Shown here: in pieces, positions 276 through 39,595 of the stretch
Layout: each line of letters opens with the position of its first letter
Numbering within the stretch: position 1 is the first letter of the stretch
From: Apostichopus japonicus
Lineage: Eukaryota; Echinodermata; Holothuroidea; Aspidochirotida; Stichopodidae
Length of the DNA stretch: 64,000 nt
Assembly (NCBI RefSeq): GCF_037975245.1
Contig: NC_092570.1
Coordinates: 389,501 to 453,500 of the forward strand
Direction of reading: 5' to 3'
The notes under the pieces: generated by a model
Seen by the model: the letters and a program-made list of their open reading frames with translations, nothing else
Database searches by the model: none
Told to the model about the DNA's origin: nothing
Translations under genes and position numbers: made by a program

Positions 276-3200
276 ATGCTTATGATGCATTTGTGTGACT
301 TATTGGCCATTCTTGTCTATGGGCTGCATCACATGCCTACTGGATGGTGTCTTAATTGTACAGCATCAGAGGGCTTTGGTAAGTTGCCTGCCAGTGGCAG
401 ACAATAAGACACATGAAAGAGATATATTTACACAGCTGGTTGAAAACCATCTCAATATCTTGTTCCAAACTCTGGACTTAGAGTTGTTTGAATTTAACAA
501 AGGGCCTCAGGGGAGATTTTCACTTTGCTTACCGAGTCTCTCAACCCTTTTAAGAGATTGTTGTAATACTGTAATAAAACTCTTTTCATCATCTTTGTTG
601 GTACTTGATGCTTGGGTGGTATACATCAGGTCCGAAAATAATTCTTGGTACTGCAACAGAAACTTACAGCCTGTGCCACTAGTACAGTACAGTACTTGCT
701 TTACTGCCCTTAAAATACATGTATTTGTTATCGGCAGCAACAACTATACCATTCCCCTTTAGTCATGTTGTTGTATATGCCTTCATAACGATTTCAATCA
801 ATACACTTTGACTTTCTTAAATCAGACATCTGAGGATATAGATGCTATATTATAAGCAGGAAAACATTGATAGATTCCTGCCTGTCTTTATAGAGAAGTA
901 GATTTGGTCAAAACGTTTTGTATCCAAAGACAAATTTTACTGTGTGGTCGGATGTCAAGCAAAAAGCAAAGTGATGGAGTACAGTAACAGCTAGCGATTG
1001 GTAGGTACAGTAGCTTATGATATGTTTGCCTGAAGTTTGAGTGGTGGCATTTTAGAATCATAAAAAAGATGTTCCTTACTTTCCACTGACGATGGGATAT
1101 TTCTTACAGAAATATTAATTGTACTTCTATAGAAGAACATCAATTGGAATAATTCTGAGGCTGAGAGGAAAGCCATTTAAGGGCCCCAGCCAATATCAGC
1201 ACAATTGTGATACTCTTAAATAAAATTATTTTCCCATCAATTTATTCATTCATCTCGTCTGGGTATTTTGTCTTGAGGTGGAAAGGAGGTTGGATTTGTA
1301 TTTTACCACATCAATGGCAAACAGATGCTCTACGGGTCAATATATTGTATTATGTCATATCATATTACATCATGTTATACTATTCATCACTGCTTTTTCT
1401 AACATCAGTTTTAGGCCTCATGTTGTAACGTCAGGCCTCATCACACTTTTAATCATTCCACCTTCTATAAAAACATGATATTGTCAATTTTGTTCATAAA
1501 AGCATCATACCATTTTTTGATATCTATGGCTCTACAGGAGATAGAAAGGTAGAGTGGGACTATATAAATGAGGAATACATGCAATTTATGAGCACAAACA
1601 CTATACAATTACCTTGCTGCCCATTGGCATTACTGCAGTAGAATGTTTCATCAAAATGGTCTACCAGTCAAAAGCCGGCGCTATTTCCCATGATTAAAGC
1701 ACACAACAAGTATCTTGGACTCTCTTAAACTTTCCATCCAGCTTACCAACCTTCTATTCTCTTCCACATTTCTTTGCATCTGACTTCTCATCCAGGACCT
1801 TTAGAATTCTTTGACGGAGACTGCTGTAAGGACATAATTTGCCATACCCTGACTACCGAAGTTTTATGCATTTCTTGTTCAGCCACCAACCTTTGCTCAG
1901 TAAGATGGTTCAAAGATGATGAGCTGTTTACTCCGCCTAGTTTAGATGGGGCCGTCTACAGTAATGCTGATGGAAGTATACTTCAAATAGATCCCCAGAC
2001 TCCCAGTTTGTCCTACGTAGGGAAGTACACATGCAAAGTATGTAACAGAACACACACTGTGGAAAAGACATTCTATGTACAAGGTATAGAGGGTAAGTTC
2101 AAGTGAAATTTAGGATGATTTAGAATAACTTAAATGAAAGTAGTGCAACACACATCAGATGATTCAGTTACTTTCAAAAGCTAAGGAATGATCAAACATT
2201 TAGTTCATGCCTCACATAACTGCATCCTGACAACAAATGTAAATGTCAAGAACAGACTATATTGATTGCAAAATAATAATGAATAATATGCCAAATGAGC
2301 AAGTTGTTACATAAAACACAAATGATGAAGAATAAACATCCGTATCCGTGTCAGTGTATCCATGTCAGTATTTATTGCAAATAAATCTCATCAAGTGCAA
2401 AACTGCTGTATAAAATGTGTCTATGTATAGCAATTGTAGAGGTACTTCTTCAATGTTGTTATAGTAGTCAAGTCTTTTGACAATAGCTTATCTGTCTTGA
2501 TTTATGATGACAGAACCTCCATATACAGACCCCCCTTTAGAATGTCGGATCAGTAGCTGCAGTGACCAGCAGGAGAATTTGGGTGATAATGCTACCTTTG
2601 TCTGTTCATTCTGCGCCCAAGAGAAAACAAATGAGTTGAAGATGGACTGGCAGAAAATGGAGGATGGTAACTGGACATCTGTCACCGATTTAAACATCAC
2701 AGGAACTATGTTTACAACTTGGAAATCAAATGTCAGCCAAGAGCTATGGTAAGCAACTTGAAATATTATCCGATATTAAATGTAGCCAAATCCTTGTTAT
2801 TCTCAGCTTATAAGTCTTCATTCTGCAATAAGTAATCTGGAATTTACAAAACCAAATCTCTCCATCTCCAAAGTGTGAATTACAGATTTACAGCTTTTTT
2901 TCACGATTTCACTCTTTAACATGCAGTGTTTCAACCGTTTGTGCAGAGTTCTTTCTGGTTATTACTAATGTAACAATAAAAACTTATGGATCATACAGAT
3001 TGGTTACTTACGTGGAATCAACAAACCAGTCCAGTGCAACCAACCCTCTACAGCTCCTTCAAGGTAAGTATGGTATCCTTGTTCTTAGCATTATGTAACT
3101 ACAAAGATGTGGGAAAACATTCAAGTACTTTGAAACATTTATATTTAAGAAATCAAAGACATTTGCCACCTTATGCCATATCTATTCACAGTGATAACAG

Positions 3201-6200
3201 CTGGAGAACTGTGCGACCTTTAGGCCATTGACAGGATTCCAATTGAAACAACTGTTTATTATACCACCAAAACAAGACTATTTATTTGTGCTTTGATTTG
3301 TAATGGACTCTCATGGAACTCTCTTTTACCATTTATTACACAGAGAAGGCTAGTAATATTTAGCTGTGACAACATGCATGTTCAGCCCCACAAGTTTGGG
3401 CCAAAAGTCACAAGAATACAGCCTTTAGTTGTTGAAAGTTCTCTAAATAATGTCATTTTCCACAGATATCAATTAATGACAAATTGTCACTCTAAATTCT
3501 TTATAGTTAATTTTGGTATTACTGTTTATTTCTTCTTTATGTTTGCCAGGCCCTGGAGTTTCTGATGTGACCATAACAGTAGTCATTTCAATTGCTGGTG
3601 TTACAGTTGTAATATTGCTGATCATTCTCCTTTGGCATGCCATAAATCTTGAAGTTAGACTATTTCTCAAGGACAGATTTGGTACAGTGGAAGAAAAAGG
3701 TAAACTTGCACCTGTCAGTGATAAATAGATACATCTTCACAAGTATTGTGAAAAATATCAAATAAATCTCATTTTTATTATTTAACATTTGTATTAATAG
3801 ATGTATATTTATGTATTAACTTATAAAGGGAAAGTGCATTCAGCCACGCTGTACCAAAAAATAATAATAAGTACATACAGTACAAAAAGTTCATACAGTC
3901 CAGAAATGTCTAAATAAAATGCTTTCTTAAAGAGGTGAGTTTTTAATTCACGCTTGAATTGTTCAAAACTATGAATATTTTGAAGAAAATCAGGTAAGCT
4001 ATTGCAAGTCATTGGGCTGTGACGGGAAACGATCTGTCTTTAACTGTTTATTTTAGTTACTGGAATATGAAGGACAATGCCCAAGTCAGTAGATAAAGAA
4101 CGTAAACCTGGACGAGCTTTGCGAATATTGATAAGTTCTGTTAAGTAAGGAGGAGCTAGATCATGAAGACATTTGATTGGGAGCCAATTAGAGTGAGCAG
4201 AGAGATGTACACGAGAAAAGAAATAAAAAGATAAAAAGTCCTCATAAGCATTAAACCCAGATGAACATCAAACTTGTCCATGCATTCTAACATCAAATAA
4301 CATGTATCGTCGAAATCAACTCCAGATCTGCTCCAAATCAAAACTCCAAATATGTGTAACTTAATTTCATTAAAAGTTAATCAAATCCCTCATATCAGTA
4401 TTCCAGGCCTACAGCCTCATTTACATATTAAACCTTAGACTTCCCTTCCAGCTGATTGCAACTCTGTGAGGAATCAATTTTCCATACACTGTAGATCATT
4501 CGAAACCACCCATATCAGTCCCGGTAGTATTTTTGTATAGATGCTTTTAATTTTGAGAAATTACCATTTTATAATCGGTTAGTCAATTAAAGAATATATA
4601 GTCTAACACACAGATCAACTAAAAAAAAACTTGCAATCTCACCAAAACTGAGTAAACAACTCTTACATAATTATCTCTTCTCATCAGGTCAAAGAAGCCA
4701 CGATGCTTTTGTAGCATACGACAGCTCGTCAGAAGAAGACAGAGCTTTTGTTCTAGAATTCATCCGTCCTAAGTTAATGGCATGCGGCTACGTTGTTTAT
4801 GTGAAGGACATTGATGTAAATGGTGGTGCTTGTGAGTATCAGACAGAACAACTGAGAAAACGGTTGATTGTTCCAGTAATTACCACCAACTTGAAAGTAC
4901 CAACAGTTGTTAACAGTCTATTCTGAATATTCTGTTGTAAATAAGCATAATCAGTAGAACAATGATAAGTGATGGTGGTTAATTTAAGTGCTCCGATATG
5001 ATGATGATAAGATCTAGGAAATCATATTGTCACAATCCCATCAGAACTGCAATTATACAAGTCAAACTGAGTTTTAATATATTTCCGCACAATATAAATG
5101 GTGTGAAGGCTTTCACATGCAGCCCCCATATACAAATACTGTAATTAGACTGACGGACCAATATAGAGTACCAAACAAAGATTTGATACCAGGAAATTAA
5201 CTTTTGATAATACATGTTCAGTAAATGACATTGAAATTTGCATATATAGGAGAGTAAAGTTTTAGCATTCTTTATGTTTTTATTGAAGTCATTCCAGAGA
5301 ATGACACCTCTTTCTATAAAATGGTGACGAGATATTTACACTGGTGGTAAGATTCGAACACAAATTATTTAAAATATGTGTTGTACTTGTGATTATCTCA
5401 GTTTAACTGATTTTCAGAGTTGTGTGGTGACACATCTATACTGGAACATAGAGCATTTGTAAATATCAAATATATTCAATACTTTTAGATTCGAGAAAAG
5501 TAGTGTAGTGTGACAAAGGTACTCTAAGTGGTCAAGAATGGAATAGCTTTCTTTTATAAAATTACTGAATGATAACAACAAGTTTGGAAGAAGTTTCCCG
5601 AAGTAATTAGGACAACTTTGAGGTAATTAGGGAATCATAAACTGTTTTAAGACTCACCTAGTAGGACTGTCCCTGAGCTTTGTATGGTTTTGATCAAGAT
5701 CATTAATGATGTCAAATGTTGCTCATCTGAACCGAAATTTAACGAGGAAATAAGCTGCTGGTTATGGCTGTCTTTGTACCATTGATAAATCTGTTACAAG
5801 GCTTAAATATAGACAAACCTTACTTAATTAATGAATTATAGAGACAAACCTTACTTAATTAATGAATTATAGAGACAAACCTTACTTAATTAATGAATAG
5901 CAGAACTTCAAGGTTCCAGATTCTCTTACTGATCTCTAATGAATCTCTCAACAGCTTTTGCAGAAGAGATTTTAGAAGCAGTAGAAGTGAGCCTGCGTTG
6001 TGTGCTGGTAATCTCACCAACATTTATGTCCTCACGCCTGATGGGACTTCAAGTAAACGCTGCGTTGGACCAGATGACAGAGCATCAGACAAAGATTATA
6101 CCCATCCTCTTTGGAGATATCAAAGAGAAAAAGTGGCAACAAATCAAAGGCCTGTCAGCTCTCCTGGCCATCTTGAGATGTATTCACTACAAAGAAGGTA

Positions 6201-6328
6201 AAACCAACAGAAACAAATTTATGAAACGTCTTCTGCTACGCATGCCGAAAAGGTCCAAGCGAGAGCGCACCTCAGATATTCTGCTCAACTCAACGAGCGA
6301 CACCACCCCCCTGACTCCAGATTTATAG
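276..6328 (+). CDS. Ig-Ig-TM-TIR receptor, IL-1 receptor-like (copy A)
   Basis: Predicted single-pass surface receptor of the IL-1R/TIR family, signalling through a cytoplasmic TIR domain; the ligand is unknown. Exons: 276-378, 1796-2092, 2514-2748, 2927-3063, 3550-3699, 4688-4831, 5955-6328; total 1440 nt, 479 aa. Exon 1 gives a hydrophobic leader (34 codons, phase 1). Residues 36-133 form an Ig domain (Cys cluster, VRWFKDDE, GKYTC). Residues about 144-257 form a second, divergent Ig domain split over two exons. The transmembrane segment is about 264-286, followed by the juxtamembrane EVRLFLKDRFG. The TIR domain runs from about 309 (DAFVAY box 1) to about 460, with a box-3-like KFMKRLLLRMP. 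Box 2 has KDIDVNGG instead of the usual RDxxPG. A possible AATAAA lies at 6570. The start exon is the least certain part, but it is exactly the same length (103 nt) as exon 1 of the paralogue at 46275-52382. Confidence 0.85.
379..1795 (+). other. Intron 1 of Ig-TIR copy A
   Basis: Starts with the strong donor G|GTAAGT at 379 and ends with a pyrimidine-rich acceptor (CATCCAG) at 1795. The interior is AT-rich unique sequence. The longer open frames here (for example 295-762) overlap exon 1 in another frame and show no recognisable domain. Confidence 0.55.
3825..4255 (-). mobile_element. Non-LTR retrotransposon fragment (RT C-terminus), intronic
   Basis: The minus strand encodes remnants typical of the C-terminal end of CR1/L2/Jockey-like ORF2 proteins: NWLPIK, then LHDLAPPYLTELI, ARPGLRSLSTDLG and finally NSLPDFLQNIHSFEQFKREL with THLFKKAF. 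The blocks lie in the expected order, but stops, frameshifts and a deletion between NWLPIK and LHDLAPPY break the frame, so it is a dead 5'-truncated copy. It lies antisense inside intron 5 of Ig-TIR copy A, between the transmembrane and first TIR exons. The clade cannot be fixed from this piece. Confidence 0.75.
4832..5954 (+). other. Intron 6 of Ig-TIR copy A, with a 31-bp triplication
   Basis: Splits the TIR domain after the KDIDVNGGA segment (donor T|GTGAGT). It is AT-rich. Near the 3' end, positions 5811-5899 hold three near-perfect tandem copies of a 31-bp unit (core ACAAACCTTACTTAATTAAT), ending about 55 bp before the last exon, where the branch point would be expected. Confidence 0.6.
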
Positions 6329-9300
6329 CCAATGATTGATGAATCGATAAGAAAGGGCAGATCTGTAAGACTTGATCTTTGATTCATTTCTTGGTATGGC
6401 TAAAGAAGCTGTAAAGTGGTCCTCTGGATTCTATGTTAGACACACTCAGTTGACTTCAATCCTGACATCTTGTGTCATTTCCTTTCGGTGCTAACAGGTT
6501 TAAGAGAATCATGGTATAATAAGGTACTTTGTGTGCCCAATACTTAATGCCTTTGGCAAAGAGTGAACTAATAAATAGGCTAGGGGTGTGAAAGGCTGGA
6601 AATAATGACACATACTCAGGTTTGCAAGGACACACCAAAGAGACTGTATAATATCAAGAACTCTACTCAAACATGTGGGCTAGTTCCTTGCATACAATTA
6701 ATGACACAACAGTTTTGCATGGGCCTTATCTGAATCCAAGAAAGTGTATGGAACCTTATTGGCCTTACAACAGGACTCTGGGTTGGATTTATTCATGACA
6801 TAGCAGGTTTATGCATTATAAATTGATAACATCTGATATTGGCATTAGATATAAACGTGAATGTCTCTCAGTTTAATAGCACTCTTCTGCCATTGTGAGA
6901 ACAATTGAGACTTCGACCAACGTTTGCAAACAGTTTCGATGTCCCAACAGAATATGGTAACATATTATAATTTCCTTTTTGGCTAAATTGCTGTCACTTA
7001 GATATAAATGGTGCTTTAACTTGATACTGCCAATATTGCAGCAAGTTACTCATGTTTAGGGATTACTGAAATTGATGGAATGTCAGACAGTAATGCTGTA
7101 AATGTAATTGATAGGATGCTAGGAACAAAGCTATCATGTATGAATAGTAAACATGTTGTGTAATGTATATTTGGGTTGCACAGAAATATGTTTGTTCCAC
7201 TTACAAAAATGTTAATTTTGTCTAAGAACAGAGAAACTGTGTGGTTTGTATCAAAAGACAACAAAAGACTGCCAGAAACGAAAGACAACGAAGACTGAAA
7301 CAAAAAACTGAAACAAAAGACTGAAACAAAAGACTGCCAGTCAGTTTGAATACCCACACATTTTGTGATTTGTTTTGTGTTTTGCAGAAGTATAAATCAA
7401 TATATATGTTTCTTTTCTTACTGCATAAAATCAGTAATTATTTTTGGCAAGTTGGGGGAAGGGGGCAGCATGTGGCACCTAAATTAATTTGCTTTTGTTC
7501 AAGGGAAATTATACAGCTTTCGAGAAACCCATGTTAGAACACTTTGTGAAGTCTTTACGTCATAGATTTTGAACTTTGATTGCAGTTCCTGACGATGTGT
7601 CAATTTAAGGTAAAGCTTTCGACAGCGGGCTGGGATGGAGGGATAGGAATGTGAATCTGAATGTGAATTAGAAGGGCCCTATTGTTTCCTGTGGAGGTCA
7701 AATGTCATCTGAGGTAAAAAGTCTGAAAACCTTGTAAACATGATAACTCAAACCCAGTAAGGTGGATGAAATTCATATATAGTATGTGGATGCACCGTAA
7801 CTAGGGCAAGAACCAGATTGTTTTCTGCAGCGGTCAAAGGTCATTTTAGTTCACCAGATGCCAAAGTGTTTCGACAAGGAAGTTATTTACCTTTGCAATT
7901 TTGTCAAGTTATCTGGAACTCTTTTCTGATGAACTTGACTTTAGGACATATTTTCCTCAGTTGCTCAATCAATCAGGTGATTCCATATATATATACTATT
8001 ATATAGCCGAAGGAATCACAATGCCTATGCTACAAAGAAATATTTTATATCACACATATATACTTTATTTTCACTTGCATTTCTGTAACTTTTATATTTT
8101 TATACATTAGCGTGCACCAACGATATTATCAGAAAGCAAAAAGCATGTACAGTTAGATACATATTAAATATATAGTATATACATATATCATTCCATTATT
8201 GTTTATTACCTTGCCAATATTTTGTTAACATGTGCTTACTTATGTTTATATAGTACTTATTATGTCATTGCCAATATTGAATCAAATTCTTGCCATTGAA
8301 TAATGAATATGCATGATACGTGAGAAACTTATCATTTATTTAAATCAAAAAAGAATACAAAATCACTATTTGTTTAAGCTTAGATAACAATAAATACATT
8401 CTTATTTAGTTTATTCTATAGTTACAGATTAAATATCATTGTAATATTTGATATACTGTTTCAAAGTGTCACATTTGCTTTCCTCATTTTTTCTTCTTAT
8501 TTGTGTTATTTTAATCCATTTTTGCACCAAATTAAGTTTACAAAGAGTATCCTTCTGACAAACTTCTTGTATGTTAAGTTCCTTTTCAATAATTTTCCAG
8601 AAATTTGGTTTTGTTTTAAGTTGAACCTGTTAAGATCTCTGTTTTTTTTTTAACAGGTTGGAACTTGGTTGCATTCTGACCTAGCCATGTCATGCTCATG
8701 TAATTTGGTCCATCTTATTCCAAATTGTCAGAATTGTTTAATTTTAGAAAAAATAGTTTCTGTCCTCACCCTCCCCCACCCACCCCCCCCCCCTCCCCCG
8801 TCAGAAAAAGTATTCAGCTCCCCTAACAAGAAGTTATGCCAATGTTACCCCATATTGGTTGCTTCATCGTAGAAACCTACTATTTAAATCGATTGCAGAA
8901 TTTTGGTTTTGGTTTTGCGTTGATCAAAAGCCTTGCCTCCTATTTCATACTTTGTGAGGTTCTCTTGGACCTAGTCTTTCTGTAAATATTGTTGAGTATT
9001 TTCAAACCAGATTGTAAGTAAAACAGCCCAAGGTACCACTTTCATTTTGCATGCTAATCATTCGTAGTAAAAGACAGTACCAATCTTTCCTTTCTTTTAA
9101 TGTATTTCTTCCTTTTATTTTGGGGTTTTTAATCCATTATACCAAGTTCGTCTGTTGTCGTTCTATCTGAAATATTAACTTTCTGTAAATATTCTGTTGT
9201 AATACTCAAGACAAGTTAAGAAGTCTTTAAAGGGAAGGTGTATTCAATTAAAGAGCTAATAAAATGAAGTTGAAAGTAAGTTTGATTTGATCTTAGCATA

Positions 9301-10956
9301 ACTAGATACCTTTTTGTCACTATGGTAATGGTAGTATTAAAAAAAAATTAAATTGTAATTATTAGTGGTAACGCATTTTGAATTGACTCTTACCAATAAG
9401 ACGTTTATTACAATCAAGGCAGATTAACCTTTTGCAGTCATTATAGTTAACATTCCAATATATCTATTTTACAGTCAACCAATACTGCTAGCTGCCTCTA
9501 GACATACTAGAAATAACGAAAAATGGTGACTGTAATATACATTTATTAATAACAAAATATTTTTGGTGCTGTTGATGGGTCTTACAGTTATTTCATCGTT
9601 CTAAACATTGCGGTTAATATACATAGGGGAGCTGAAGTAATATACAGCATTTCATTCACTATGGAACGCCAAAATTGCTTTAGAAATGATTCATGCTAAA
9701 ACTGAATTGTTATTCTGCTTGCCTAATATTGACTGTGATGTCACAATTGATATCTGAGTTTATATGAAAGTTTGTTTTATCTTTCTGCACCCTCTAACAG
9801 GTTTTCGTTGCGATTGGGAGTAATGTTACAAAGTGTGATTAAGGTGACTAAACTGAGTGCGTACATCCAAGGACACTCTTCAAAATATTCATTTTAATTT
9901 CCTAGTCCGTTTTCCATTGTTCATTTTGCTTATAGATATGAAAGTTTAAAAAAGGGTTAATTCTGAGGTGACTAGTTCGAATCTCGCTCTAACCAAAATT
10001 TCTTTCCAAAAAGATGTCAAAGATGTAAAGGTTTTATCACTAAAACGTAGAAACTTAAGAAGTAAGATAACTAATGACATGCTACAAGGAAACAATTAAA
10101 ATGAAGTTAATGAAGTATAGCGTAATATATACACAAAAAGTGAATAAAAGTTAATGGTTAAAATTCACAATTCGTCATCACAATTTAAAAAAAATAACAG
10201 TGTAGAGAGCTATGCCTTGATGTTGAATTAATAATCAATGCTATGCAATAAAACAAATACACATGGTAGTTTATTACGTAATCAAAACCTCTGTCGTACT
10301 TTTCTGGTTGAGTGTCGTTAAGTCATGTGGAAGGGGGAATAATTAAAGGCCTGGGAAGAGTTAAGGGAAGAACAAGGGAGAGTTATTTCCAACCCTATAC
10401 GTGTTATAAGGTAAGTGGTATCTAACACCTGTGTATCAGCCGCCCATCCCCCCCCCCCCGAACCCCTTTTCTCTTCCATCCCTAGCCATGCCACCGAAAT
10501 GTGGGTCCCGAAATCTATTCGGTGGGTCGCAAGATTTCGAAAACAATATTAGACTTTTGAAGCTTGCCGACGGAAATCAATTACCGTAATTTTTTGAATA
10601 ACATTATAAGTCAGTGGTTTTCATGTATTCTTAGCATCGACTTTGAGAGGGTTGAATTCTATTCCGTGGTGGCAGTCAACTTCCTGTCAAAGTTTGATCA
10701 TAGATGAACATTTATTTGACATTGTAGCATGTTTTTTTCCTCTTGCTTCCAATGTAAATTACACACCATATATTATCCCTTGAATAAAACTATAAAAGGT
10801 GCGGATTGAAAAAAAAACTAAATCGAAAACACAAATTTGGAGTGTACATTCATTTCACTGAAGAAGATATTATCTGGTGGGTTTCCCATATTTGAAGTCT
10901 GCAGTCCCATTCCTCTTTTATATGTTAATTGTTATATTCTAATCGGTTCATTTCTA
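6329..10956. other. Convergent intergenic region / 3' UTRs
   Basis: About 4.6 kb of AT-rich sequence between the 3' ends of Ig-TIR copy A (+) and the SH3-SH2 adaptor (-). It contains a possible poly(A) signal for the receptor (AATAAA, 6570), a short AAAAGACTG repeat near 7280-7340, a C-rich tract at 8765-8800, and a small fold-back around 10488-10545 (CCACCGAA/TTCGGTGG). No coding exon or RNA gene was recognised. Confidence 0.5.
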
Positions 10957-13900
10957 CTAGTAAGCTAATTGCCTACACGGAATAGTAAGTAACAGATTTT
11001 TCTCTTTAGTCAGGCTGTTTTTCTTGTAGTAATCCAGCAGGGTCTCAATAGAAAGGAATGTCCGAGTTCGTCCGCAGGAAGATTCGATGTAGAAGCTGGA
11101 TTTATTTACTGCGATTGTAAATTTCCCTAATTGCTCCTGACATTTGACAAGTAAAGTCAAGTACTCTGGCTGTGGAATTCCAAGAGAAAGGAAACTTAAA
11201 ACAAAATGGGTTTGGGTGTTAATAAAAAATATTTGTATAGATTGGAGAAGGAAATACAATTTCTGTATTAGATAGATGCCTCACTTTATGGATAATAACA
11301 AGTAAAATCGTTGGGTTTGATAGAAAAAAAGTAAAACTTTCTGTTTTTAAACATTTAAGCAACAAAGAAAGTACAAGTGATTAAGAAGAAAAATGACTGG
11401 CACGTTAGAAATGAATGAACAAAAGGATATATACTGACTATCAAGCATGTATACTTACTGTAAAAGATATATACTTACTATATAGGATATTACTTACTAT
11501 AATGGATGTATACTTTATAAAGGATATATACATAAAGGATCTATACTTCTATAAAGGATATATACATACTATAAGGGATATACTTACTATAAAAGATATA
11601 TACTTACTATAAAGGATATATACTTACTTTATAGGAAATTACTTACTATAATGGATATATACTTTCTATAAAGGATATATACATACTATAAAGGATTATA
11701 CTTACTATAATGGATATATACTTACTATAAAGGATATATACATACTATAATGGATATATACTTACTATAAAGGATATATACTTTCTTTATAGGATATTAC
11801 TTACTATAATGGATATATACTTACTATATAGGATATTACTTACTATAATATGGATGTATACTTCTATAAAGGATATATACATACTATAAGGGATATACTT
11901 ACTATAAAGGATATATACTTACTTTATAGGATATTACTTACTATAATGGATATATACTTACTATAAAGGATATATACATACTATAATGGATATATACTTA
12001 CTATAAAGGATATATACATACTATAAAGGATATATACTTTCTTTATAGGATATTACTTACTATAATGAATATATACTTACTATAAAGGATATATACATAC
12101 TATAAGGGATATACTTACTATAATGGATATATACTTACTATAAAGGATATATACTTACTTTATAGGATATTACTTACTATAATGGATATATACTTACTAT
12201 AAAGGATATATACATACTATAATGGATATATACTTACTATAAAGGATATATACTTACTATAAAGGATATATACATACTATAAAGGATATATACTTACTAT
12301 AATGGATATATACATACTATAAAGGATATATACTTACTATAATGGATATATACTTACTATAATGGATATATACTTACTATAAAGGATATATACTTACTTT
12401 ATAGGATATTACTTACTATAATGGATATATACTTACTATAAAGGATATATACATACTATAATGGATATATACTTACTATAAAGGATATATACATACTATA
12501 AAGGATATATACTTTCTTTATAGGATATTACTTACTATAATGGATATATACTTACTATAAAGGATATATACATACTATAAGGGATATACTTACTATAATG
12601 GATATATACTTACTATAAAGGATATATACTTACTTTATAGGATATTACTTACTATAATGGATATATACTTACTATAAAGGATATATACATACTATAATGG
12701 ATATATACTTACTATAAAGGATATATACATACTATAAAGGATATATACTTACTATAAAGGATATATACATACTATAATGGATATATACTTACTATAAAGG
12801 ATATATACATACTATAAAGGATATATACATACTATAATGGATATATACTTACTATAAAGGATATATACATACTATAAAGGATATATACTTTCTTTATAGG
12901 ATATTACTTACTATAATGGATATATACTTACTATAAAGGATATATACTTACTATAAAGGATATATACATACTATAATGGATATATACTTACTATAAAGGA
13001 TATATACATACTATAAAGGATATATATACTTTCTTTATAGGATATTACTTACTATAATGGATATATACTTACTATATAGGATATTACTTACTATAATATG
13101 GATGTATACTTCTATAAAGGATATATACATACTATAAGGGATATACTTACTATAAAGGATATATACTTACTATAAAGGATATATACATACTATAATGGAT
13201 ATATACTTACTATAAAGGATATATACATACTATAAAGGATATATACTTACTTTATAGGATATTACTTACTATAATGGATATATAATTACTATAAGGGATA
13301 TATACTTACTTTAAGGGAAAATAAACTTACTATAAAGGATACTATAATTGATATATACTTACGTTATGCTTACTGGTTCTAATATAATATGCTCCAATGG
13401 GTGCGTTTAACAGTATTTCGGCCGAATTTCTGTCAGAATCTTGTTTCTTCACGAACCATTCTTTTTGCCAGAGGATAGGATCTGCTTTAGGCAGTATTTC
13501 ACAATTTTCTTTTGGTACCAGACCAATTTCACTCTCGGGATTTCTTGCGATATACATCTCATTTGGCTTTCCATGATTATAGAAGCCAATGACGTCCATG
13601 CGTTCTCCTCGCACAAGTGTCAATTGTCTGTATTCGTCAAAAACAAGTTCAGTTCCATGCAAGGGGAACAAATCAGCAGTGATTTCGATCACAAAGTGAA
13701 AACGATGCGTTGTCGGTGGATCTATGAAGAAGAAACATGAACAGTGAGTCATTTCGTGATGGATATAATTCTGAGTAAAATGTCAACTGCTGGAGTCTTT
13801 TTTTTTCTTCAAGTTGTTACAACTCTGATAAATTTCGCTGCTTATAATGATGTCGTAACTGATATCTATCCTATATTTTGATGTAATTGCATATCGTTCT

Positions 13901-16900
13901 TTCTTTTGTTTTTGCTGTTGTTGTTTTGCCTGTTGACATTACTATCAGCATTTAACTTTTGTTTCTATATTATTGTTACAACTCTGATCAATTTCGCTGA
14001 TAATATGTCGTGACTGATATTTCTTTTTCATGTTTTGCTGTTGTTGTTTTGCCTGTTGACATTACTATCAGTATTTAAGGTTTGTTTCTTCATCATTGTT
14101 AATATAGTCGTGGTTGTCCTTCGTGACGTCACAGTTATGTTGTTGTAGATGTTCTGATGTTATTCGTCTCGTCCAAGTACGGCGTCGACAGTCCAGTCTA
14201 TTCTCTGGGATAAGTATGTCACCAGTCTCCGTTTTGTAAGTCTAATATTTACGAATATATTAGGAATACATTTCTTATCCCACATTACCATGAGCCCTTT
14301 TTTACTCCAGTGCCCCCCCCCCCCCCATCACCCTTCCCCTCTAATAAGACCTGCCATGTCGAATTGTTGCTTGTGTTATTCGAAATGGACAAAACTGGTT
14401 GTATATGACGCAGGGTCGACGTTCGGGGCAGTGTTGTTTACCTTCTACTGGACTAGAGCGACCAGAACCGGGTCGTGAGGATGAACCCGAGGAAAGAAAG
14501 CCGATGAACTTTGTAAATCCTCCACGAGAACCTGTATAGGAAATCAAGATATCACATAGCAAACTTTGGAACAGATATAGCAGTGATTCAAATCGTTCAA
14601 TATTTGAAATAAGGCCTGAAGTGATACTCTGACGTCATCATCGAGTGAGTTAACGAAAGTTCGTTGTGCAGCCAAGAGAATATTTTAAAGCAGAACAGAG
14701 GTGGAATGTGTATACCACCTGCACTCAAATCTGTCTCCTTTTGTGTTATATCAAAAGCCTTCTTCATTTCTACTAATGTTTACTTAGATCATCGGCGAAT
14801 AATGATTGGGGAACGCATAAATGATAACAACTCGTTTTATTTTCTGGATGTTATGAACGTCGTTAGAGAATATGCTATGATTGTATAGCTAGTTATAGTC
14901 TCTTACCCGACGTAGGACTCATTAATTTCCCGCTTCCTCGTCTGTCAACCGATTGTTGTTTTCTGGTAATTTTAAATTCATCTCCCCATCCATATATTCC
15001 CTCCCGAATATCTTTCACACCATCATGAAGATCGTACAATTTGTTCTCCTTTAAGATTGTCAAGAGATGGTTTAGGTCATTTTTGAAGATGTATTCCTCC
15101 ATAAGGACACGAAGTTTCTCTTTATTTTCCACGATGCTCTTTTTAACTTTGGACGATTCCATAGACTTTGCAACTGCCATCGCTTGATCTGTTGTCATTG
15201 TGTCACAAAGATATGCAATAACCTGTGACGTCACATCCGTTTCACGAACGTTGGAAGTTGGAGAATGTTCGTGAGGTATTACATTGTAAACGTTATCTAA
15301 AGGCGTCAAAAAACAATAAAAACATCAACATGTAACATTGGAGTTAGTTACTTAGTTTGAGAAACTTGGAAGACTTACTCGTATCCCGAATCTTCCTGCA
15401 GGATCAGGTCGACCTCCCCCTCCCAGCCCCACCCCCCCCCCCACCGTTACTCGTTAAAATAATCTCGTATTATCGGAATCGGATTTGTAAAGTAGCATTT
15501 GTAACAAAAATCATTGACAGATTCTTATGTTTGCGTAACATTGAATTTCGTTAGATATGTGATCAAAGAACTTAGTAGCCGTTGTCCTCGATTCGACATC
15601 TCCTGAAACATTAATATTATATTATTAACACCAGCCCCTTCCCCCGGCTAGTTCAGGGAGTGTGGGGTTTACATCCCCTCACCCATTCAACCTCACCCAT
15701 TCAACCCCAGAATGGGAAGTAGTTATCAGCACAAGGCTTGTGTTTAAACCGAATGGTCATTTCTCCCACCCACAAGAAAAGCACCCTTTCCTATAAAAAC
15801 CACTCAATTAAACTGGGCCCACCAGCGATCATTCACATTAAGACGAGCTATGCAAGGATGTAATGTTTTAACCATAAAGAGGCATAGAACATTTAAAACA
15901 AAGATCTTTACACGAACAATATTAACCCAAAGACGCTCATTTCAATTCTGTGAAGAAATCGTATTGAAACCTACTTGCATCACTACTAATTTCGCCTGAA
16001 TTCGTCGTGGCCGTGCTATTCATATGGTAGGGCGTTTTGTAGGAGTTCCGCGATTGAGCTGCGCGAAGGTGTTGCTCGTCTCTCCTGGTAGTTTTAGGCG
16101 AAGGTGGTGGTGAGTAAACATCGTCTCTGGGCAATGGCGGCAAAGGTTTTTTAGGGGGTCCTTTATATTGTTCAACTGTGGAATAATATCAATCATTTTA
16201 TATTAAAGTACGCAGGTTGAAAATAAAGCGTACTTCGAAACTATGGAATTGAAAGATCATTATATTCAATTTCATATCTCACATAGATCTAGGCCTAAGT
16301 GAGGGCCAGGAATTGTGTCATGTTCCACTGAACCATTGGATGTGTATTTGTGCAGACGAGGTGTCCATTAATACATATATTTGGTAATTCCTACCATCAA
16401 CCATCACGGGGTTGCCCACCTTAAGAAAAATGTTGCCCCCCCCCCCCTAACAATAGAATGTTGGCTACGCCACTGAGTCATTTAACAATATCTCGCGTTA
16501 TAGAAACAAATTATTGATACTGACAACTAGGAGGGGTGAAATATATTTCTGTTTAAGATAAATATAAAATTTCCCCTACCCTCTATCCCCTTTAAATAAA
16601 CCCATCACACCCTGACTCTTAACCAAATAATGTCCAATTTATTATTGGTAATTATTATCTTGGATTTTAAAAGAAAATGATTAGTCTGAATATATATATA
16701 TATGCCCTACATATTTTGCCTAAAGATGGCATAAGCGGTGCTTTGTTGAACGATGTTGAAATCACTATAATATAATTCAGCGGGAAACAATTATTTATTT
16801 AATTAGTAAACTTCATCTGATTAGAAACATTTTAACCTTGGCATGTACTGGCCACTTCCAAAATGTTTGGACGTTGACCCGAAAATTAAAAGGATCGTCC

Positions 16901-18802
16901 AAGTACAAGTTTATATTTGACATATGAAAGAGGAATTTATTCTAAGCATTCTGGTGAAAATTGACAATTTTGGGAGTTAACAACGTTTTCAAGTTGACAC
17001 GTTTTGCAGCATCAGTGACTTGATCAGAAGACATGTGCGATGTCACTGAAGCACACTAGCAAACTGTATTATATCTGTCTTCAAACTTTAAATATATGTT
17101 TTCTACTTTAAAAGTGTGATGCTTCTCAGTATGAATAACTTTGCCGTCACTTCACATCCCATTAGATAAGTAACATGTCCATTCCAAGATCAAAACAATA
17201 AAGCAACACAAAACATTTTACTCTCAGTACATGTACAACTATTGTGACATCACAACCGTTTGTTTTAAGTTCATAGTTGGTGCAAACATAATTTACTAGC
17301 TGATGTGATGGCCGATGCTATAGAGGGTGACGAAAAACTCATTCCTCGTCGGTCGTGTAGCTGTGACAATTTCAATGATCAATATTTCTAGAACTCCATG
17401 TAGGAAGCTCACCAGGATGTTAAGAGGAAGTTCCTCTACCATCATTAAATCATAAAATCTTTTAGCATATCACGTCGTATACTATCAAATTTCGCTAACA
17501 ATACGGTATTGTCCCTTTCACCTTTAATATTGACACCTCGTGTTGACATTATTACCTAGTGACCGTTAATGCAGACAATGGTATCAATCGACCCACATAA
17601 GGTAACGGTTAATTCAATTGTCTTCTTATGAAATTTGGGTTTTCCCCCATTTCTCCCGCAAAGTTTTATGTTATTCATTTTGTTATATTTTGTTATAACA
17701 TTATCAGTATAACTATATTTTTCTTTATTTCCTTCTGCATTTTAAGCGACGTCAGGCTTGTGTCTATTAAGTTTATTCTGCTATGGAGAATTTAAAATAT
17801 TACATGCTAAATAAATCACTAGTAAAAATAACATTTTGTAGGAATTTTAATGATTCTTAATTACCAAACCTCTCGCCTTATATATTCTGTTTTGTATAGT
17901 ATTCCATATCATTGAATCGGTCCCTCTCTAACCCGATGACAGTCAGACACGTCCCACTATCTCCACAAGTCACTGTAGACCCTGGTCCCTCTCTAACCCG
18001 ATGACAGTCCGACACGGCCCACTATCCCCAGAGTTGAAATGAACGAGGAAATCAATGTTGAAATTTATACAAGAAGGTAACACTAAGCATGTGAAGGAAG
18101 TCGGAAATTTGCTTGGAAGTACAGCAACACCCCCCCCCTACCACACACCACCCCTCCCTTGATACACTTCCCCTTCATAGACCACCATCTCTAGGCTACA
18201 ACAGCGCACTGTATTCTTTTTTTTGTGACCTTCAGAAAAGCTATATTGAATCATAAAAAAACATGTAGCTTACCATTTTCGTACTTAGGTTCCTGAGATG
18301 TATGCAGCTTACGGAGTAAATCAGCTCGAGTCAGATCAGTGCAGTTATCTTGGCCCTGGTTGTTTCTAAATACCCCATCGCTTCCCCTACGAGGTAACAA
18401 TTTAGGAGGAGTTCCGAAAGGGGTGGAAATCAAGCTGCAAGACCTTCGACAGCTATTTCTGATTCTTTGCAGGTTTTCATAATTTTCTTCTTCTCCGATA
18501 TCGTCTTTGAAATGGCTTTCGTCTTCTCCAGTGTTTTCCTGGCTTTCTTCGATGTCGTCTGCTTGAATCGATTCTTTTCGTTCATTTAACCAAGAAAGAC
18601 AAAACTGGACTTGATCTAGTTCATCCTCGAGTTCTGTTTTCCTTGAATTCAGATTCAAGATGTCGCTTTCAATAGCAGGGAGATCTTCGTTGTTAACACT
18701 ATTCCGTCTTAACTGATCTATGATATTCAACGACGGCGGATTTTTGCTCGGAAAATGTCTTTTCCAGTTCAGATTAAATTCATATAATTGTTCCGTAGCC
18801 AT
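10957..18802 (-). CDS. Adaptor with Bcr-like oligomerisation segment, PxxP/pTyr motifs and SH3-SH2
   Basis: Predicted cytoplasmic tyrosine-signalling adaptor. Exons (minus strand): 18802-18274, 16175-15975, 15296-14907, 14531-14442, 13721-13363, 11169-10957; 1782 nt, 593 aa. The ATG at 18802 has A at -3 and G at +4. Residues 9-23 show F-x3-W-K-x2-F-P-x3-P-P, followed by a coiled coil (about 41-80), as in the Bcr oligomerisation domain. Y108 (YENL) and Y174 (YENV) fit the GRB2-SH2 pattern YxN. Residues 182-203 are proline-rich (PPLPR, SPPPSPK). Residues 245-373 are helical and unassigned. SH3 is about 420-480, with GERMDVIGFYNHG and GLVPKEN. SH2 is about 492-590, with WF at 492, the phosphotyrosine-binding Arg518 in YYIR, and FTIAV. 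A stop follows the SH2 and there is no kinase. The SH3-SH2 spacing recalls ABL; the C-terminal YYKKNSL also recalls Vav. SLAP-like adaptors are the alternative by architecture. Confidence 0.83.
11170..13362 (-). repeat. 20-bp satellite filling the SH2-splitting intron of the adaptor gene
   Basis: From about 11418 to 13360 the intron is a nearly continuous tandem array of a roughly 20-bp unit, on the order of 90 copies. In transcript orientation the unit is GTAAGTATATATCCTTTATA, with variants such as GTATGTATATATCC and short 17-18-bp forms. Mixed variants recur in the same order, for example around 12520 and 12890, showing segmental amplification. The array reaches the genuine 5' splice site of exon 5 (C|GTAAGTATATATC, 13362), which is itself a copy of the unit. 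The remaining 11170-11417 is ordinary intron leading to the acceptor TTCCACAG. Confidence 0.9.
13816..14092. repeat. Direct duplication of about 160 bp in an adaptor intron
   Basis: Two adjacent copies share the blocks GTTACAACTCTGAT-AATTTCGCTG (at 13816 and 13975) and GTTGTTGTTTTGCCTGTTG (near 13918 and 14042). They are diverged, with small gaps. The duplication lies in intron 4 of the adaptor gene, between the 90-nt Gly/Ser exon and the SH3-SH2 exon. Confidence 0.65.
16176..18273 (-). other. Intron 1 of the adaptor gene
   Basis: Donor G|GTAAGC at 18273 and acceptor TTCCACAG at 16176. It is AT-rich with a C-run at 16435-16448 and a second near 18128. A two-copy tandem repeat of about 65 bp (17919-18031, core CCCTCTCTAACCCGATGAC) is present. 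No exon was recognised inside it. Confidence 0.55.
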
Positions 18803-19315
18803 ATTGATTATATTAAACGTTTGTTCTTTTGCTTTCTTTAACAAGCCAACGAGAAGCAGAAGTTAAACCAAACAAAAATGAAGATAATTTCTGCCAAGCT
18901 CATATATCTAGTAGTCGCAAAAGTTAATTCACTTCCTTTATAGTACACTGCTTTCTTAACATCTAGAAATGAGGAAACTATCTTGCGTTCAGTACAGCAC
19001 GGTGTTTCGTACTTTGTAGATCTGTCTATAAACCAGTAAGAACAGGTTGACGGAATGACACAAGATTCATTCAAACATCACTTTATAAACATCGTTTGGG
19101 ATGATTGATTTTATAAACTGACTCTTTTGTTGTTGACCTTGATTTTCTAGGTTCCTCTGACCTTACTATTGCGTTGAGTAAATATTTCATAAGCTAATAA
19201 CTGTTGGAAATCCACCATGTAGTCACCTGCTAAATAAAGACACTTTCCAACCTTTACAATGAGTTTATCGCCTCCAACCCCCTTTTTTTTTTCCATTACA
19301 CCAACGCAGCATACG

Positions 19316-20162
19316 CATGGGCGGCGATCCTGGGGGGAAGGGGGGATATATCCCCCCATGAAAATGGGTGGAGGGGATGTAATACACCATATCCCCCCCC
19401 CCACCAAATGCCAGGGATAAGAATATTTTCATGCCTACATTTATGCATCATCGTGAATGTACAGCTATTTTTTAGCTTCATTTCTCGCCTACCATAAACG
19501 CAGTGCGATCTTTTCAAATAAACCGTCTTTATAAAGCAAGAATAGTTGACTGTAGGCTTCATTGGCCCTATAACAACAAAATGTATTATTGCGCCCACGG
19601 TATTGATATAGTACATATATGCACCCTAATAGTATTCATATAGGCCCTATAGTAGGCCTACACACGTACATGTTCCCTCAAATAGCTGAGAATCTCATGT
19701 AACCAGGGTAATGCTTAATACACGTTTCACCTGGATGCCCTAGCAATCGGTACCTAGGAATGTAACTGTGTAATTGTGTATTGCATTTGTATAGGCCTAT
19801 AATAGCCTGAATGAGACCATTTTCTTCATCGAATAATATAAAAGTGCTCTCGAACATTCTAACTTAGCGCCTGAAACAAGATTGAAAGGGGCAATTTTCC
19901 CAAAATAACACCCGAAATTAAAAAAAAAAAGTATTTTGGATCCTGATTATGAGATATTTCGGACATGATATACCTATTTTAAAGTTGGGTATATGCCGCT
20001 TGGAAACCTCGGGAAGTGCCGTTTCCGGCCATCTAGAGGGTTTGTAAATCCCAAAATTTTCTTGTACGCTTCGCGCCAACCCATGGTGGCGCTACGCTTA
20101 GATAGTCAACAAGGTCATATCCCCCCCCCCCCCCCACTCGAAAGTACGGATCGCCGCCCATG
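19316..20162. mobile_element. Inverted-repeat (MITE-like) element, about 850 bp
   Basis: The left end CATGGGCGGCGATCC (about 19316) is repeated in inverted form at the right end (about 20148-20162). Each end is followed by a homopolymeric G-run and GATAT, so the ends match beyond the core. The interior has no open frame. It carries a block around 20030-20095 with the palindrome-like GCGCCAACCCATGGTGGCGC. No clear target-site duplication could be seen, so the exact boundaries are open. Confidence 0.6.
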
Positions 20163-24408: not shown

Positions 24409-27400
24409 ATGTTCCACAGCAAAGAAAATAACCGGGAATGGCGTTTCTTTGTTATCCTCATGATATGTACAACATTAATTGATCATGGAGGTAAGAATTT
24501 GATTAACTTATATACTTTAAGTCACTAATTGTATTTCATTAATTGTATTACTACTGATGTTTCTGTATATTAAACAACAGACCAGTGTTGGATTGGCTTA
24601 CCGGTTGACCGGTTTAGCAGCTCGGAAGGACTGGTGCGCCGCTGGGTCCGAGGTGTCGATAATTTGTGTTAGTAGGGATTAGGGGGGGGGGGGGTCGAAG
24701 CTAGTTATGTCACTGGTGGAGGGAGCGCTATGACCTGTTTCTTGGGGGTTACATGAGAACATCAAATGGTTGTAGTTAGTAAACTACGCAGAACATTGAA
24801 AATTAAAAGTAGCTGTCTTGGTTTTGATATCCAGTTTACCTCAACTGTTTCCGAATATTTAAAAAGTGGTGTGTCTATATTCAAATCAAGACGACCTTAT
24901 ATATGAAACGAAATGAATGTTAATAAATAAGTAGTTAATGGATTCATTCGGCTCATCAACATCCACATCCACAAACAAAGGGTTTCATGTCAACTTTAGT
25001 TACTTTTTGGTGATTGTTGCAAAAGGAGTAGCTTAGATAGACAACCCAATTGAATAGGCTTTAGCACATACCTTGCTATGTTTGACGACATGAATTAAAC
25101 TTTTTGCCTGTTGATTATTTGTATATAGATGGCGTGTTGGGGTGGGGGAGGGGATAGATCTTGTTCAACTCAATAGCAAAATAGTCAGATTTCAAGTGAG
25201 TGTGAGGGACACTTTCCTACATTTGAGCACATGGACCACGCAAACCTCATTCAAATAAATTAACTAATACTGATAAAGAAAATGTCTAATTGGATTTTAA
25301 TCACTCCGATCATTACCTTTCAATTTGGTGGACCGGAAGTATCTAAATTTGATTTAAACTTTGATGACCTCGATAGGCTGCGTGGCAGTTATAGACACCG
25401 CCACGTAGAGAGCTTATTTTCTAGCTATTATTCTCAGAGGTATTTTATAAATTTAATAGTTTTGATGGAGGTTTCATTTTCGTCGAGACTGAAACCGTCG
25501 ACAATCCCTCACAAAATTACATTGTATTTACAAAGTCCAAGTACTTTGCAGGTTTTATAAAGCCATAAGTTCTTTCAAATATTTTACTGTCCAAATTATA
25601 GAGTTTTAGTCTTTTTAGTATCGAAACTTTTTGTGTAGCCTATTGTATTTTCTTGTTTACTTTATATGAGAACCATGCATACGATATTTATCACCATATT
25701 ACACGTTTTTATAAAGAAATAAAGAATTTTTTTTTGGTCATATACCTCCCAATGATTTACATACAATTGAGAGATGATCAAATATATAGGGAAAATTGAA
25801 CTTAAAAATTAAAAGAACGGGTATACAGGAAGCAATATGGGAGAAAGTGTCCATAGTAAATATAAATAAACATAACTTTTGAAAAGATGAAATATATTCA
25901 AATGATATTAGCTAGATAGTGATAGGCCTGTGCAGCTCCTCTGCGCATTTGCTATAATTACATCATTTCCGGTCGACGGATGTCACATGCATTAAATTGT
26001 AAGTGACATACGTATGTGAGTACATATATATAAATATATATGAAGTTGAAATATATGCAAATTCCGAGAATGCGAAAGTGTATATATTTAGATCATTACT
26101 ATTCTTACTAACTGCGTATACAGGTAATCTTGCATAGCTTTAAAATTGAAACTATAGAATTCGAAAGGAAAAATGATAGTGAAATTATTACTAAGTAGTT
26201 CATGCCTTGCTTAATTAATTTCATTTATAATTTCCTTGTTTCTGTCCGGGGACAAGAAAACATAGAAATCGAAAATAAGGCGATTTTTAAAATTAAAATT
26301 AAAACGAAGAGTTTTTCACCCAGTTATTCTCTAGTATTTTTTTCCTTCTTAATTTGTTTTTTCGTCTCTCGAATTTTCTCTCATTTCCCCCTTTGCCTTT
26401 AGTAAAGCCACGTGGCCTGCAAATTGGGTTCCGTGGGTATGGCAGAGTTAAAGGACGACTAACGCATAAGCAAAACAACTAAAATAAACGATTTAAATAT
26501 GCAACTATGCTGAACGCTGCAACAACCTTGAAATTTTCATCAGGGCCTCTTTCATTTATATCCTTGATTTCCCGGATCCGAAATACAACCATTCATCTCA
26601 TGTCAATCCGCAGGAAACAAAAACCATTCATCTCATGTTAATCCGCAGGAAACAAAACTCCATAGGGTTTCCTATAACCGGTTCATGGTCAAAACTACTT
26701 TCCAGGGCGTACCCCCACCCCCGCCCCTCTCCCATACCATCCCAAATCCACACGGACGCCTATATTACTCCACAATATTCTGATCCTCAGTCCTGTTTTT
26801 CAAAATCCATTGCTTGTTATTTTATCAAATTGTGTTAAAATATCACGTAAATATCTTTGGACATTTTTCTTAATCCCATTCTGTATTTCAGAATAGTAAT
26901 GAAACTGGACTATGTCTAGAAAATTATCGTGGGAAATATTATTTTGTATCATTTTTTGTTTTCATATCTATTTTTGATGCTCCTTTAACCTGAGGGAAGA
27001 GGCCAACTTTAAATGTGTCTGAAGCAGCATGAGTTATCCCGACAGTTTCATTTTATATTTGTTATAATAATTAAATAATAGTTAATATAATTTTATAATA
27101 TTCTCAGGCTACTAATTGTTACTGACTTAAAATCACAATATAGTTCATAAGCATAAATACTTAAGGCCAATGGTATTATTGGCCGAAAATTCGCGACCAT
27201 GCTCTAATATATATAGTCTCTCTCTCTCTCTGTCGACCATGCTCTAATATATATAGTCTCTCTCTCTGTGTCGACCATGCTCTAATATATATAGTCTCCC
27301 TCTCTCTGTCGACCATGCTCTAATATATATAGTCTCCCTCTCTCTGTCGACCATGCTCTAATATATATAGTCTCTCTCTCTCTGTCGACCATGCTCTAAT

Positions 27401-39480: not shown

Positions 39481-39595
39481 TACAATTCAGCACAAGACAA
39501 TGCAATGGAATGCACTCCAATGTAATGAAACAAAAGACCATGTTAGTAATACAATACAAACCAGTACAGTATGGAACAATACAACACAATGCAAT

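Follow-up and report, generated by a model that had tools for sequence, protein, structure and literature searches.

A predicted adaptor of Apostichopus japonicus with a BCR-like head, a putative death fold and a probably Nck-derived SH3-SH2 tail

What kind of protein begins like BCR, ends in an SH3-SH2 pair and carries no recognized enzymatic domain? The question is raised by a 64,000-nucleotide stretch of DNA of the holothuroid Apostichopus japonicus (contig NC_092570.1, positions 389,501 to 453,500; C10:389501-453500 in our contig numbering), referred to below as the window. Six minus-strand exons at 10957-18802 of the window (the adaptor gene) predict a product of 593 amino acids (a.a.; the adaptor), which a preliminary description regarded as a natural, kinase-less counterpart of the Bcr/Abl domain pairing. 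We favor, with moderate confidence, a different reading, in which the product is a cytoplasmic adaptor and belongs to a small family that probably arose from Nck: a BCR-like head, a flexible linker with an SH3 ligand, a death fold (possibly a death effector domain, DED), a Nck-type third SH3 domain, and an SH2 domain would together link phosphotyrosine signals to death-fold assembly. Comparisons were made within the same genome (G000; 671.58 Mb in 35 contigs, given C-numbers), from which loci and related genes were picked and given L-numbers (L008, L009, L010, and L012-L020).

The six exons join into one open frame of 593 codons with GT-AG borders at all five introns and intron phases of 1, 1, 1, 1, and 0, and the spliced frame first described is thereby confirmed. 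Exons 2, 3, and 4 each have phase 1 at both ends, and symmetric exons of this kind can be shuffled with the frame kept intact. A Pfam scan of the whole protein at E up to 10 (HMMER filters drop weak matches) agrees with the earlier statement that it holds no kinase, RhoGEF, or GAP: the BCR-family RhoGEF and RhoGAP domains found no match in the 593 a.a., and GEF, GAP, or kinase models matched neither the adaptor nor its nearest relative, L008.

The BCR-like head and its recurrence in a paralog

The spaced pattern F-x3-W-K-x2-F-P-x3-P-P, which the preliminary description had likened to BCR, lies at residues 9-23 of the adaptor, and its spacing is identical to that in human BCR (1k1f_A). By Smith-Waterman alignment, the adaptor head scores 57 against BCR residues 1-72 (shuffles 24.1 ± 4.5, none of 5000 as high), the head of L008 scores 52 (equaled by 1 of 5000 shuffles, or by 5 of 5000 when shuffled segment-wise), and the two heads score 77 against each other (0 of 5000). 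A profile of the two heads aligns with BCR at an hhalign probability of 89% and a score of 34.9, compared with a maximum of 17.7 among 300 segment-wise shuffled BCRs and with 18.4 for tropomyosin, 14.1 for APC, and 9.0 for GCN4; coiled-coil composition was controlled for by these shuffles and the three decoy coiled coils. By shuffles and profile alike, the likeness of the adaptor head to BCR 1-72 exceeds both chance and coiled-coil composition, and the head is very probably homologous to the BCR oligomerization domain. Like that domain (PF09036, 1k1f), it is N-terminal and its motif is followed by a helix-like stretch; it differs in staying below the Pfam cut-off, in a longer loop between motif and helix, and in having no GEF or GAP model after it. 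In the 1k1f work the BCR domain is reportedly an antiparallel coiled-coil tetramer. This domain drives the clustering of BCR-ABL in leukemia, and we know of no use of it described outside BCR.

Several results count against homology. On an 83-residue head piece, PF09036 aligns residues 7-27 to profile positions 3-23 at 15.6 bits, formally failing its cut-off of 23.1, and the unrelated model UPF0242 scores higher on the same piece (16.6 bits). The L008 head piece, which likewise begins at profile position 3, stays below the cut-off at 16.2 bits, and PF09036 returns no row for the full-length adaptor or for whole L008; in the formal sense, this is the missing Bcr-oligomerization match that the preliminary description had named as a refutation of its reading. 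The L008 motif alone is only weakly like that of BCR, 361 of 10,000 shuffles scoring as high; the helix parts alone are equaled by 184 (adaptor) and 97 (L008) of 10,000 shuffles. A generic coiled coil joined to a short aromatic/proline motif, BCR-like by convergence, would account for the unreached cut-off in both proteins, and also for the plain Smith-Waterman score of tropomyosin against the adaptor head, which at 53 lies near the 57 of BCR. Since tropomyosin comes so close, the distinction between BCR and a generic coiled coil depends on the head motif and the profile: the first 28 residues of the adaptor score 45 against the first 26 of BCR, a value equaled by 1 of 10,000 shuffles, and the profile score stands well above its shuffled and tropomyosin controls. 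Convergence therefore seems improbable, and the BCR-type N-terminus of the preliminary description is supported as homology, although Pfam does not reach its threshold.

A PDB sequence search with the head returned nothing meaningful. When the genome was searched with PF09036 and with human BCR 1-72 for the animal's own BCR head, the best matches reached only E 9.1 and E 2.48; the latter keeps FPxSEPP and lacks the F-x3-W part. Upstream of the best genomic match to PF19057, a putative BCR/ABR marker, lies the start of a DH-type RhoGEF, as judged by eye. A tblastn search with three heads over the 50 kb upstream of that match gave nothing better than E 0.22, a result that does not prove the head absent from the animal's own BCR.

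The paralog L008 (contig C11) predicts 592 a.a. from five exons on one strand, in the order head, DED-like domain, Death domain, SH3, degenerate SH3, and SH2. Its whole-protein Pfam scores are 31.4 bits for Death (cut-off 22.6), 41.3 for SH3 (cut-off 21.8), and 48.3 for SH2 (cut-off 21). L008 bears directly on whether the adaptor gene is one gene at all. The model of the latter was built from genome sequence alone, the intron between exons 1 and 2 is about 2.1 kb long, and exon 4 measures just 90 bp, all of which would suit two neighboring genes fused on paper, one BCR-like and proline-rich (exons 1-2) and the other with a death fold, SH3, and SH2 (exons 3-6). On the other hand, the phases fit at every junction of the adaptor gene, and L008 has its head upstream of the DED and the SH3-SH2 on one strand, within 4 kb and with fitting phases. 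Because L008 repeats the order of head, death fold, SH3, and SH2 with matching phases, a chance joining of two genes is unlikely, and we give that explanation little credence.

Between head and death fold lies a linker, in which the preliminary description had pointed to a YENV motif at Y174 and to proline-rich SH3 ligands. The ligand is confirmed: KPLPPLP is a class-I-like SH3 ligand. YENV is present, split by the exon 1/2 junction. Two YxN sites are seen in the adaptor (Y108 and Y174) against 1.4 expected from composition, so YENV stands at chance level and is not evidence, and Y174 was rejected as support for a counterpart of BCR Y177. L008 has its own YANL at Y81, and YxN downstream of the coiled coil is perhaps a weak trait that both proteins share.

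The SH3-SH2 tail and its relatives

The SH2 domain is recognized by PF00017 at 24.9 bits in the whole protein and 26.9 bits in the tail alone (cut-off 21). It looks functional; the betaB5 arginine (R518 here) is kept in all nine Nck-type rows aligned, human NCK1 included. The SH3 domain is recognizable only by alignment to Nck-type SH3s. No SH3 model in Pfam matched the adaptor at E up to 10, and the AlphaFold model of exon 5 (predicted local distance difference test, pLDDT, 42) is uninformative on this domain; the SH2 half of the SH3-SH2 pair first described is thus secured by Pfam, and the SH3 half is seen by alignment only. The canonical ligand-binding aromatics (the Tyr of ALYDY, the Trp, and the Tyr of PxNY) are replaced by A, M, and N, and the proline is kept. 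The adaptor SH3 would probably be unable to bind ordinary proline ligands and probably has a structural role.

Aligned over SH3-SH2, the adaptor scores 160 with L008, 121 with L010, 116 with L009, 103 with the genome's own Nck (L013), 98 with human NCK1, 96 with L012, and 90 with L015, followed by CSK and RASA1 (76), ABL1 and VAV1 (73), GRB2 and SRC (72), L014 (69), and SLA (61). In the SH3-SH2 tree, the adaptor is grouped with the Nck-like genes of this genome (85/82), and SRC, SLA, and CSK are the companions of ABL1 (92/86), none of these branches being starred. Approximately unbiased (AU) tests on SH3-SH2 rejected the grouping of the adaptor with ABL1 (p 9.6e-5), with the kinases (p 0.0039), and with GRB2 (p 0.018), and did not reject adaptor plus L008 (p 0.43). 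Intron position points the same way. A phase-0 intron lies at the same place of the SH2 domain in all eight Nck-like genes (the adaptor gene, L008, L009, L010, L012, L013, L014, and L015), and exon 6 of the adaptor gene begins at it; the genome's ABL (67% identical to human) and a CSK-like gene (by eye) have no intron there, and two GRB2-type genes of the genome are cut about nine codons further on, as seen on the acceptor side. From these comparisons, the SH3-SH2 tail is probably descended from Nck.

The same results decide the fate of the pairing proposed first, a natural Bcr/Abl-type adaptor in which a BCR-like head precedes an ABL-type SH3-SH2 and the kinase has been lost. Its head is supported, and the ABL1 SH3-SH2 does align to the adaptor (score 73, Z 10.1). 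However, GRB2, CSK, RASA1, and VAV1 align equally well and Nck better, the AU test rejects adaptor plus ABL1 on SH2 alone as well (p 0.004), and the common intron is absent from the genome's ABL. ABL affinity of the tail is rejected by scores, tree, AU tests, and intron position together, and the pairing as a whole is strongly disfavored, to the point of being barely credible.

The SH2 domain taken by itself tells against Nck. Its scores are 102 with GADS, 86 with L008, 75 with SOCS2, 74 with NCK1, 53 with ABL1, and 52 with the animal's own Nck; GADS is the best match in a PDB sequence search (E 3.1e-5), where GADS, RASA1, and SOCS2 precede NCK1 (E 0.35), and with a three-member profile NCK1 ranks below RASA1, SHP2, p85, and others. 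A tree of SH2 domains alone (22 rows) pairs the adaptor with L008 (93/89), on an adaptor branch of 2.47, and does not recover these two beside the Nck genes; adaptor plus SOCS2 is not rejected on SH2 (p 0.14), and adaptor plus GADS is rejected weakly (p 0.028). Even over SH3-SH2, the node uniting all Nck-like rows reaches only 78/48, the adaptor branch is long (1.82), and the relatives compared all come from one genome. These observations would fit a tail whose source was not Nck but a different SH2 adaptor, either GADS/GRB2-like or unplaced. Against such an origin, the SH2 of L008 scores 123 with L009 and 122 with the own Nck, above its 113 with GADS; the whole SH3-SH2 favors Nck-like rows and rejects GRB2; and the intron of GRB2-type genes is displaced. 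GADS/GRB2 and ABL1 share with the adaptor the order of SH3 then SH2, and GADS holds the top SH2-only score, but neither the tree tests nor the intron position agree with such a kinship, ABL being the clearest case. We consider a non-Nck source unlikely, and descent from Nck is retained.

Compared with Nck1/Nck2, which have three SH3 domains and an SH2, the adaptor has the same third-SH3-to-SH2 module, the SH2 arginine, and the phase-0 SH2 intron of L013. It differs in having one SH3-like domain and not three, in the loss of the ligand aromatics, in the added BCR-like head and death fold, and in an SH2 that alone is not closest to Nck. L013 is a Nck-type gene with three SH3 and one SH2 by Pfam, whose PDB matches include NCK2 and NCK1 chains (PLC-gamma, GRB2, and others rank first), and it is clustered with its diverged relatives L010, L014, and L015 at C10:17.01-17.09 Mb. 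L009 (C10) predicts 311 a.a. with Death, a degenerate SH3, and SH2. About 15 kb from it lies L012 with SH3-SH3-SH2, in whose interval no Death match was found among the 150 scored of 204 candidates, which does not prove its absence. Of the eight genes with the SH2 intron, all except L008 are on C10, which would fit a duplicated set of Nck 3' exons that later gained symmetric 5' exons.

Could the adaptor gene be a duplicate in decay, one that took up shuffled exons and has since become a pseudogene or else a dominant-negative decoy? Its branch lengths (1.82 for SH3-SH2 and 2.47 for SH2) and its degenerate SH3 pocket would be expected of one; the open frame of 593 codons, the intact splice sites, and the retained SH2 arginine would not. 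The same SH3 aromatics are lost in L008, L009, and L012, and the loss therefore looks like a stable derived state. Decay is accordingly improbable. L014 and L015 also have degenerate third SH3 pockets. Within L014, a 566-codon open frame at 2710-4410, between SH2 exons, is composed of repeats of the serine-isoleucine-histidine-proline type and is apparently a simple repeat that happens to stay in frame, not a gene.

The predicted death fold of exon 3

Exon 3 encodes a folded helical domain that the preliminary description missed. Single-sequence AlphaFold gives its 108-residue piece six helices at a pLDDT of 76. Foldseek places the FADD death domain first (probability 0.99), and death or DED structures fill its top twelve rows. 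VIA gives a Z of 11.0 to 3ezq_B (87 residues at 3.0 Å), and at least 40 of the 50 entries listed have titles that mark them as death, DED, PYD, or CARD structures. Exon 3 is thus predicted to form a six-helix death fold, in agreement with solved death folds.

Assignment to the DED subtype is a weaker proposition, about which we are unsure. Profile 1 was made from the DED of L008, three genome DEDs over the PF01335 cut-off (L017, L019, and L020), the weaker L016, and three human DEDs, L016 and L017 having been picked through likeness to the DED of L008. Against it, exon 3 scores 13.9 bits (0 of 1951 scored shuffles as high), and 10.5 bits (1 of 1965) once the DED of L008 is removed. Against a clean profile of three human DEDs and the two genome DEDs not picked in this way, the score falls to 2.8 bits (165 of 1970), and the matching exon of L008 scores 18.2 bits (0 of 1964). 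The L008 exon passes this test, so the DED reading of exon 3 depends on kinship with L008. The DED of L008 scores 50.5 bits with another profile, which includes five genome DEDs, a value that is partly circular because L016, L017, and L018 were picked by likeness to it; 18.2 bits is the cleaner figure. Exon 3 scores 0.7 bits with a Death profile (849 of 1983), and by plain Smith-Waterman its likeness to the Death and the DED of L008 is about equal (Z 3.3 and 3.1).

Both the fold and the subtype have evidence against them. The best Foldseek E-value is a weak 0.27, with all 42 matches at 0.001 or above, and helical bundles can reach a VIA Z of 13 by arrangement alone. PF01335 returns no row for exon 3 or the whole adaptor at E up to 10, a human-only DED profile gives 2.2 bits (232 of 1957 scored shuffles as high), and exon 3 rises above shuffles only with profiles that hold genome DEDs picked via the DED of L008. 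Moreover, hhalign of MAFFT alignment A4, itself doubtful, against human DEDs found nothing; a PDB sequence search with the domain likewise gave nothing meaningful.

FADD consists of a DED and a Death domain. Like FADD-type DED/Death adaptors, the adaptor has a death fold without a recognized enzyme, and L008 has a DED-like domain followed by a Death domain; the SH3-SH2 tail and the BCR-like head set the adaptor apart. In marine invertebrates, death-like/TRADD-N domains are described as fused to signaling tails, among them SH2 in the sponge Amphimedon (PMC8195603). The adaptor similarly has a death fold shuffled onto signaling domains, but it lacks a TRADD-N Pfam match, its tail is SH3-SH2, and its head is BCR-like. 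The main text of a survey of SH2 proteins in the sea star egg contains neither "death" nor "Nck" (PMC11593052). Among the open-licence papers searched, no BCR-type head outside BCR and no death-fold Nck-type adaptor was found. The claim of an undescribed domain order holds for that literature, although the order given was incomplete, since the death-fold domain had been overlooked. Shuffled death-fold signaling proteins are already known; what seems new here is the unusual head with the Nck-type tail.

Setting of the gene and its possible meaning

The features of the adaptor gene and its surroundings are collected in Table 1. The AATAAA hexamer is weak evidence for the 3' end of the gene, because the window holds as many as 160 such hexamers. 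No Rfam match at gathering cut-offs was found in 9000-20000, and ARAGORN found no RNA genes. The TIR and Ig-like exons could belong to Ig-TIR (IL-1 receptor-like) genes flanking the adaptor gene. Much of the window consists of the very long tandem arrays.

Table 1. Positions of exons, domains, and neighboring features in the window.
Feature	Position	Strand	Content and basis
Exon 1	18274..18802	-	Residues 1-176 and first base of 177; frame, splice sites
BCR-like head	about 18563-18802	-	Residues 1-80; likeness to BCR 1-72; PF09036 13.4-15.6 bits on pieces (cut-off 23.1)
Exon 1 remainder		-	Acidic linker, with YENL at Y108 (18470-18481) and the start of YENV (Y174)
Exon 2	15975..16175	-	Residues 177-244; linker rich in proline, holding KPLPPLP at residues 186-192 (16129-16149)
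Exon 3	14907..15296	-	Phase 1-1; predicted death-fold domain at about residues 258-345 (14992-15255)
Exon 4	14442..14531	-	30 residues, serine/glycine-rich linker; least certain exon, placed by GT-AG and phase 1-1 only
Exon 5	13363..13721	-	Degenerate Nck-type third SH3 (about residues 409-480) and first half of SH2 with R518 (13378-13380)
Exon 6	10957..11169	-	Second half of SH2 and stop codon; begins at phase-0 intron site common to Nck-like genes
Possible polyadenylation signal	10711..10716	-	AATAAA, 241 nt beyond the stop
Tandem array	11422..13346	+	20-bp unit, about 98 copies; fills most of intron 5
TIR exon	5936-6328	+	TIR_2 32.0 bits (cut-off 28)
TIR exon	46278-46661	-	TIR_2 28.2 bits (cut-off 28)
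Ig-like exon	1729-2106	+	I-set 20.6 bits, below cut-off 23.7
Ig-like exon	51448-51981	-	I-set 26.7 bits (cut-off 23.7)
Long regular tandem arrays	27194-30041, 30275-30940, 39578-43651, 61431-64000		Units 30-84 bp, 91-97% matches
Open frame, 397 a.a.	31816-33009	+	Mucin-like repeats of 33 residues, rich in threonine and proline (unit 99 bp); Pfam at E up to 1 gave no match

We propose that the SH2 domain would dock on a phosphotyrosine of an activated receptor or scaffold and that the head would multimerize the adaptor, whereupon the clustered death-fold domain could nucleate or recruit other DED or Death proteins; KPLPPLP may recruit an SH3 partner, for instance real Nck. Oligomerization, phosphotyrosine binding, death-fold partners, and an immune or apoptotic role are what we infer from the domains. 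Nck, phospho-Nephrin, and N-WASP are described as forming membrane clusters by multivalent binding (PMC4238058). Possible partners would be plentiful: of 204 Death candidates in the genome 150 were scored, which gives at least 150 Death matches over the cut-off, and a DED search at E up to 1 gave 84 matches, 32 of them over the cut-off. Dense Death clusters lie at C12:19.4-20.0 and 23.7-34.2 Mb and dense DED clusters at C16:1.8-1.9 and 10.2-11.1 Mb, suggesting large tandem expansions.

A broader reading can be offered only tentatively: the BCR head may be a mobile self-assembly module that was joined, in a marine deuterostome lineage, to death folds and Nck-type SH3-SH2, turning tyrosine phosphorylation directly into DED/Death assembly. 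To our knowledge, no such direct wiring of tyrosine phosphorylation into death-fold assembly has been found in vertebrates. If this reading is true, the adaptor would show the clustering that renders BCR-ABL oncogenic put to natural use without a kinase. Since a likely homolog of the BCR head occurs in two paralogs without a matched GEF, GAP, or kinase, the origin and minimal function of the head become testable. If expressed, this architecture would be a one-protein bridge from phosphotyrosine signaling to death-fold assembly.

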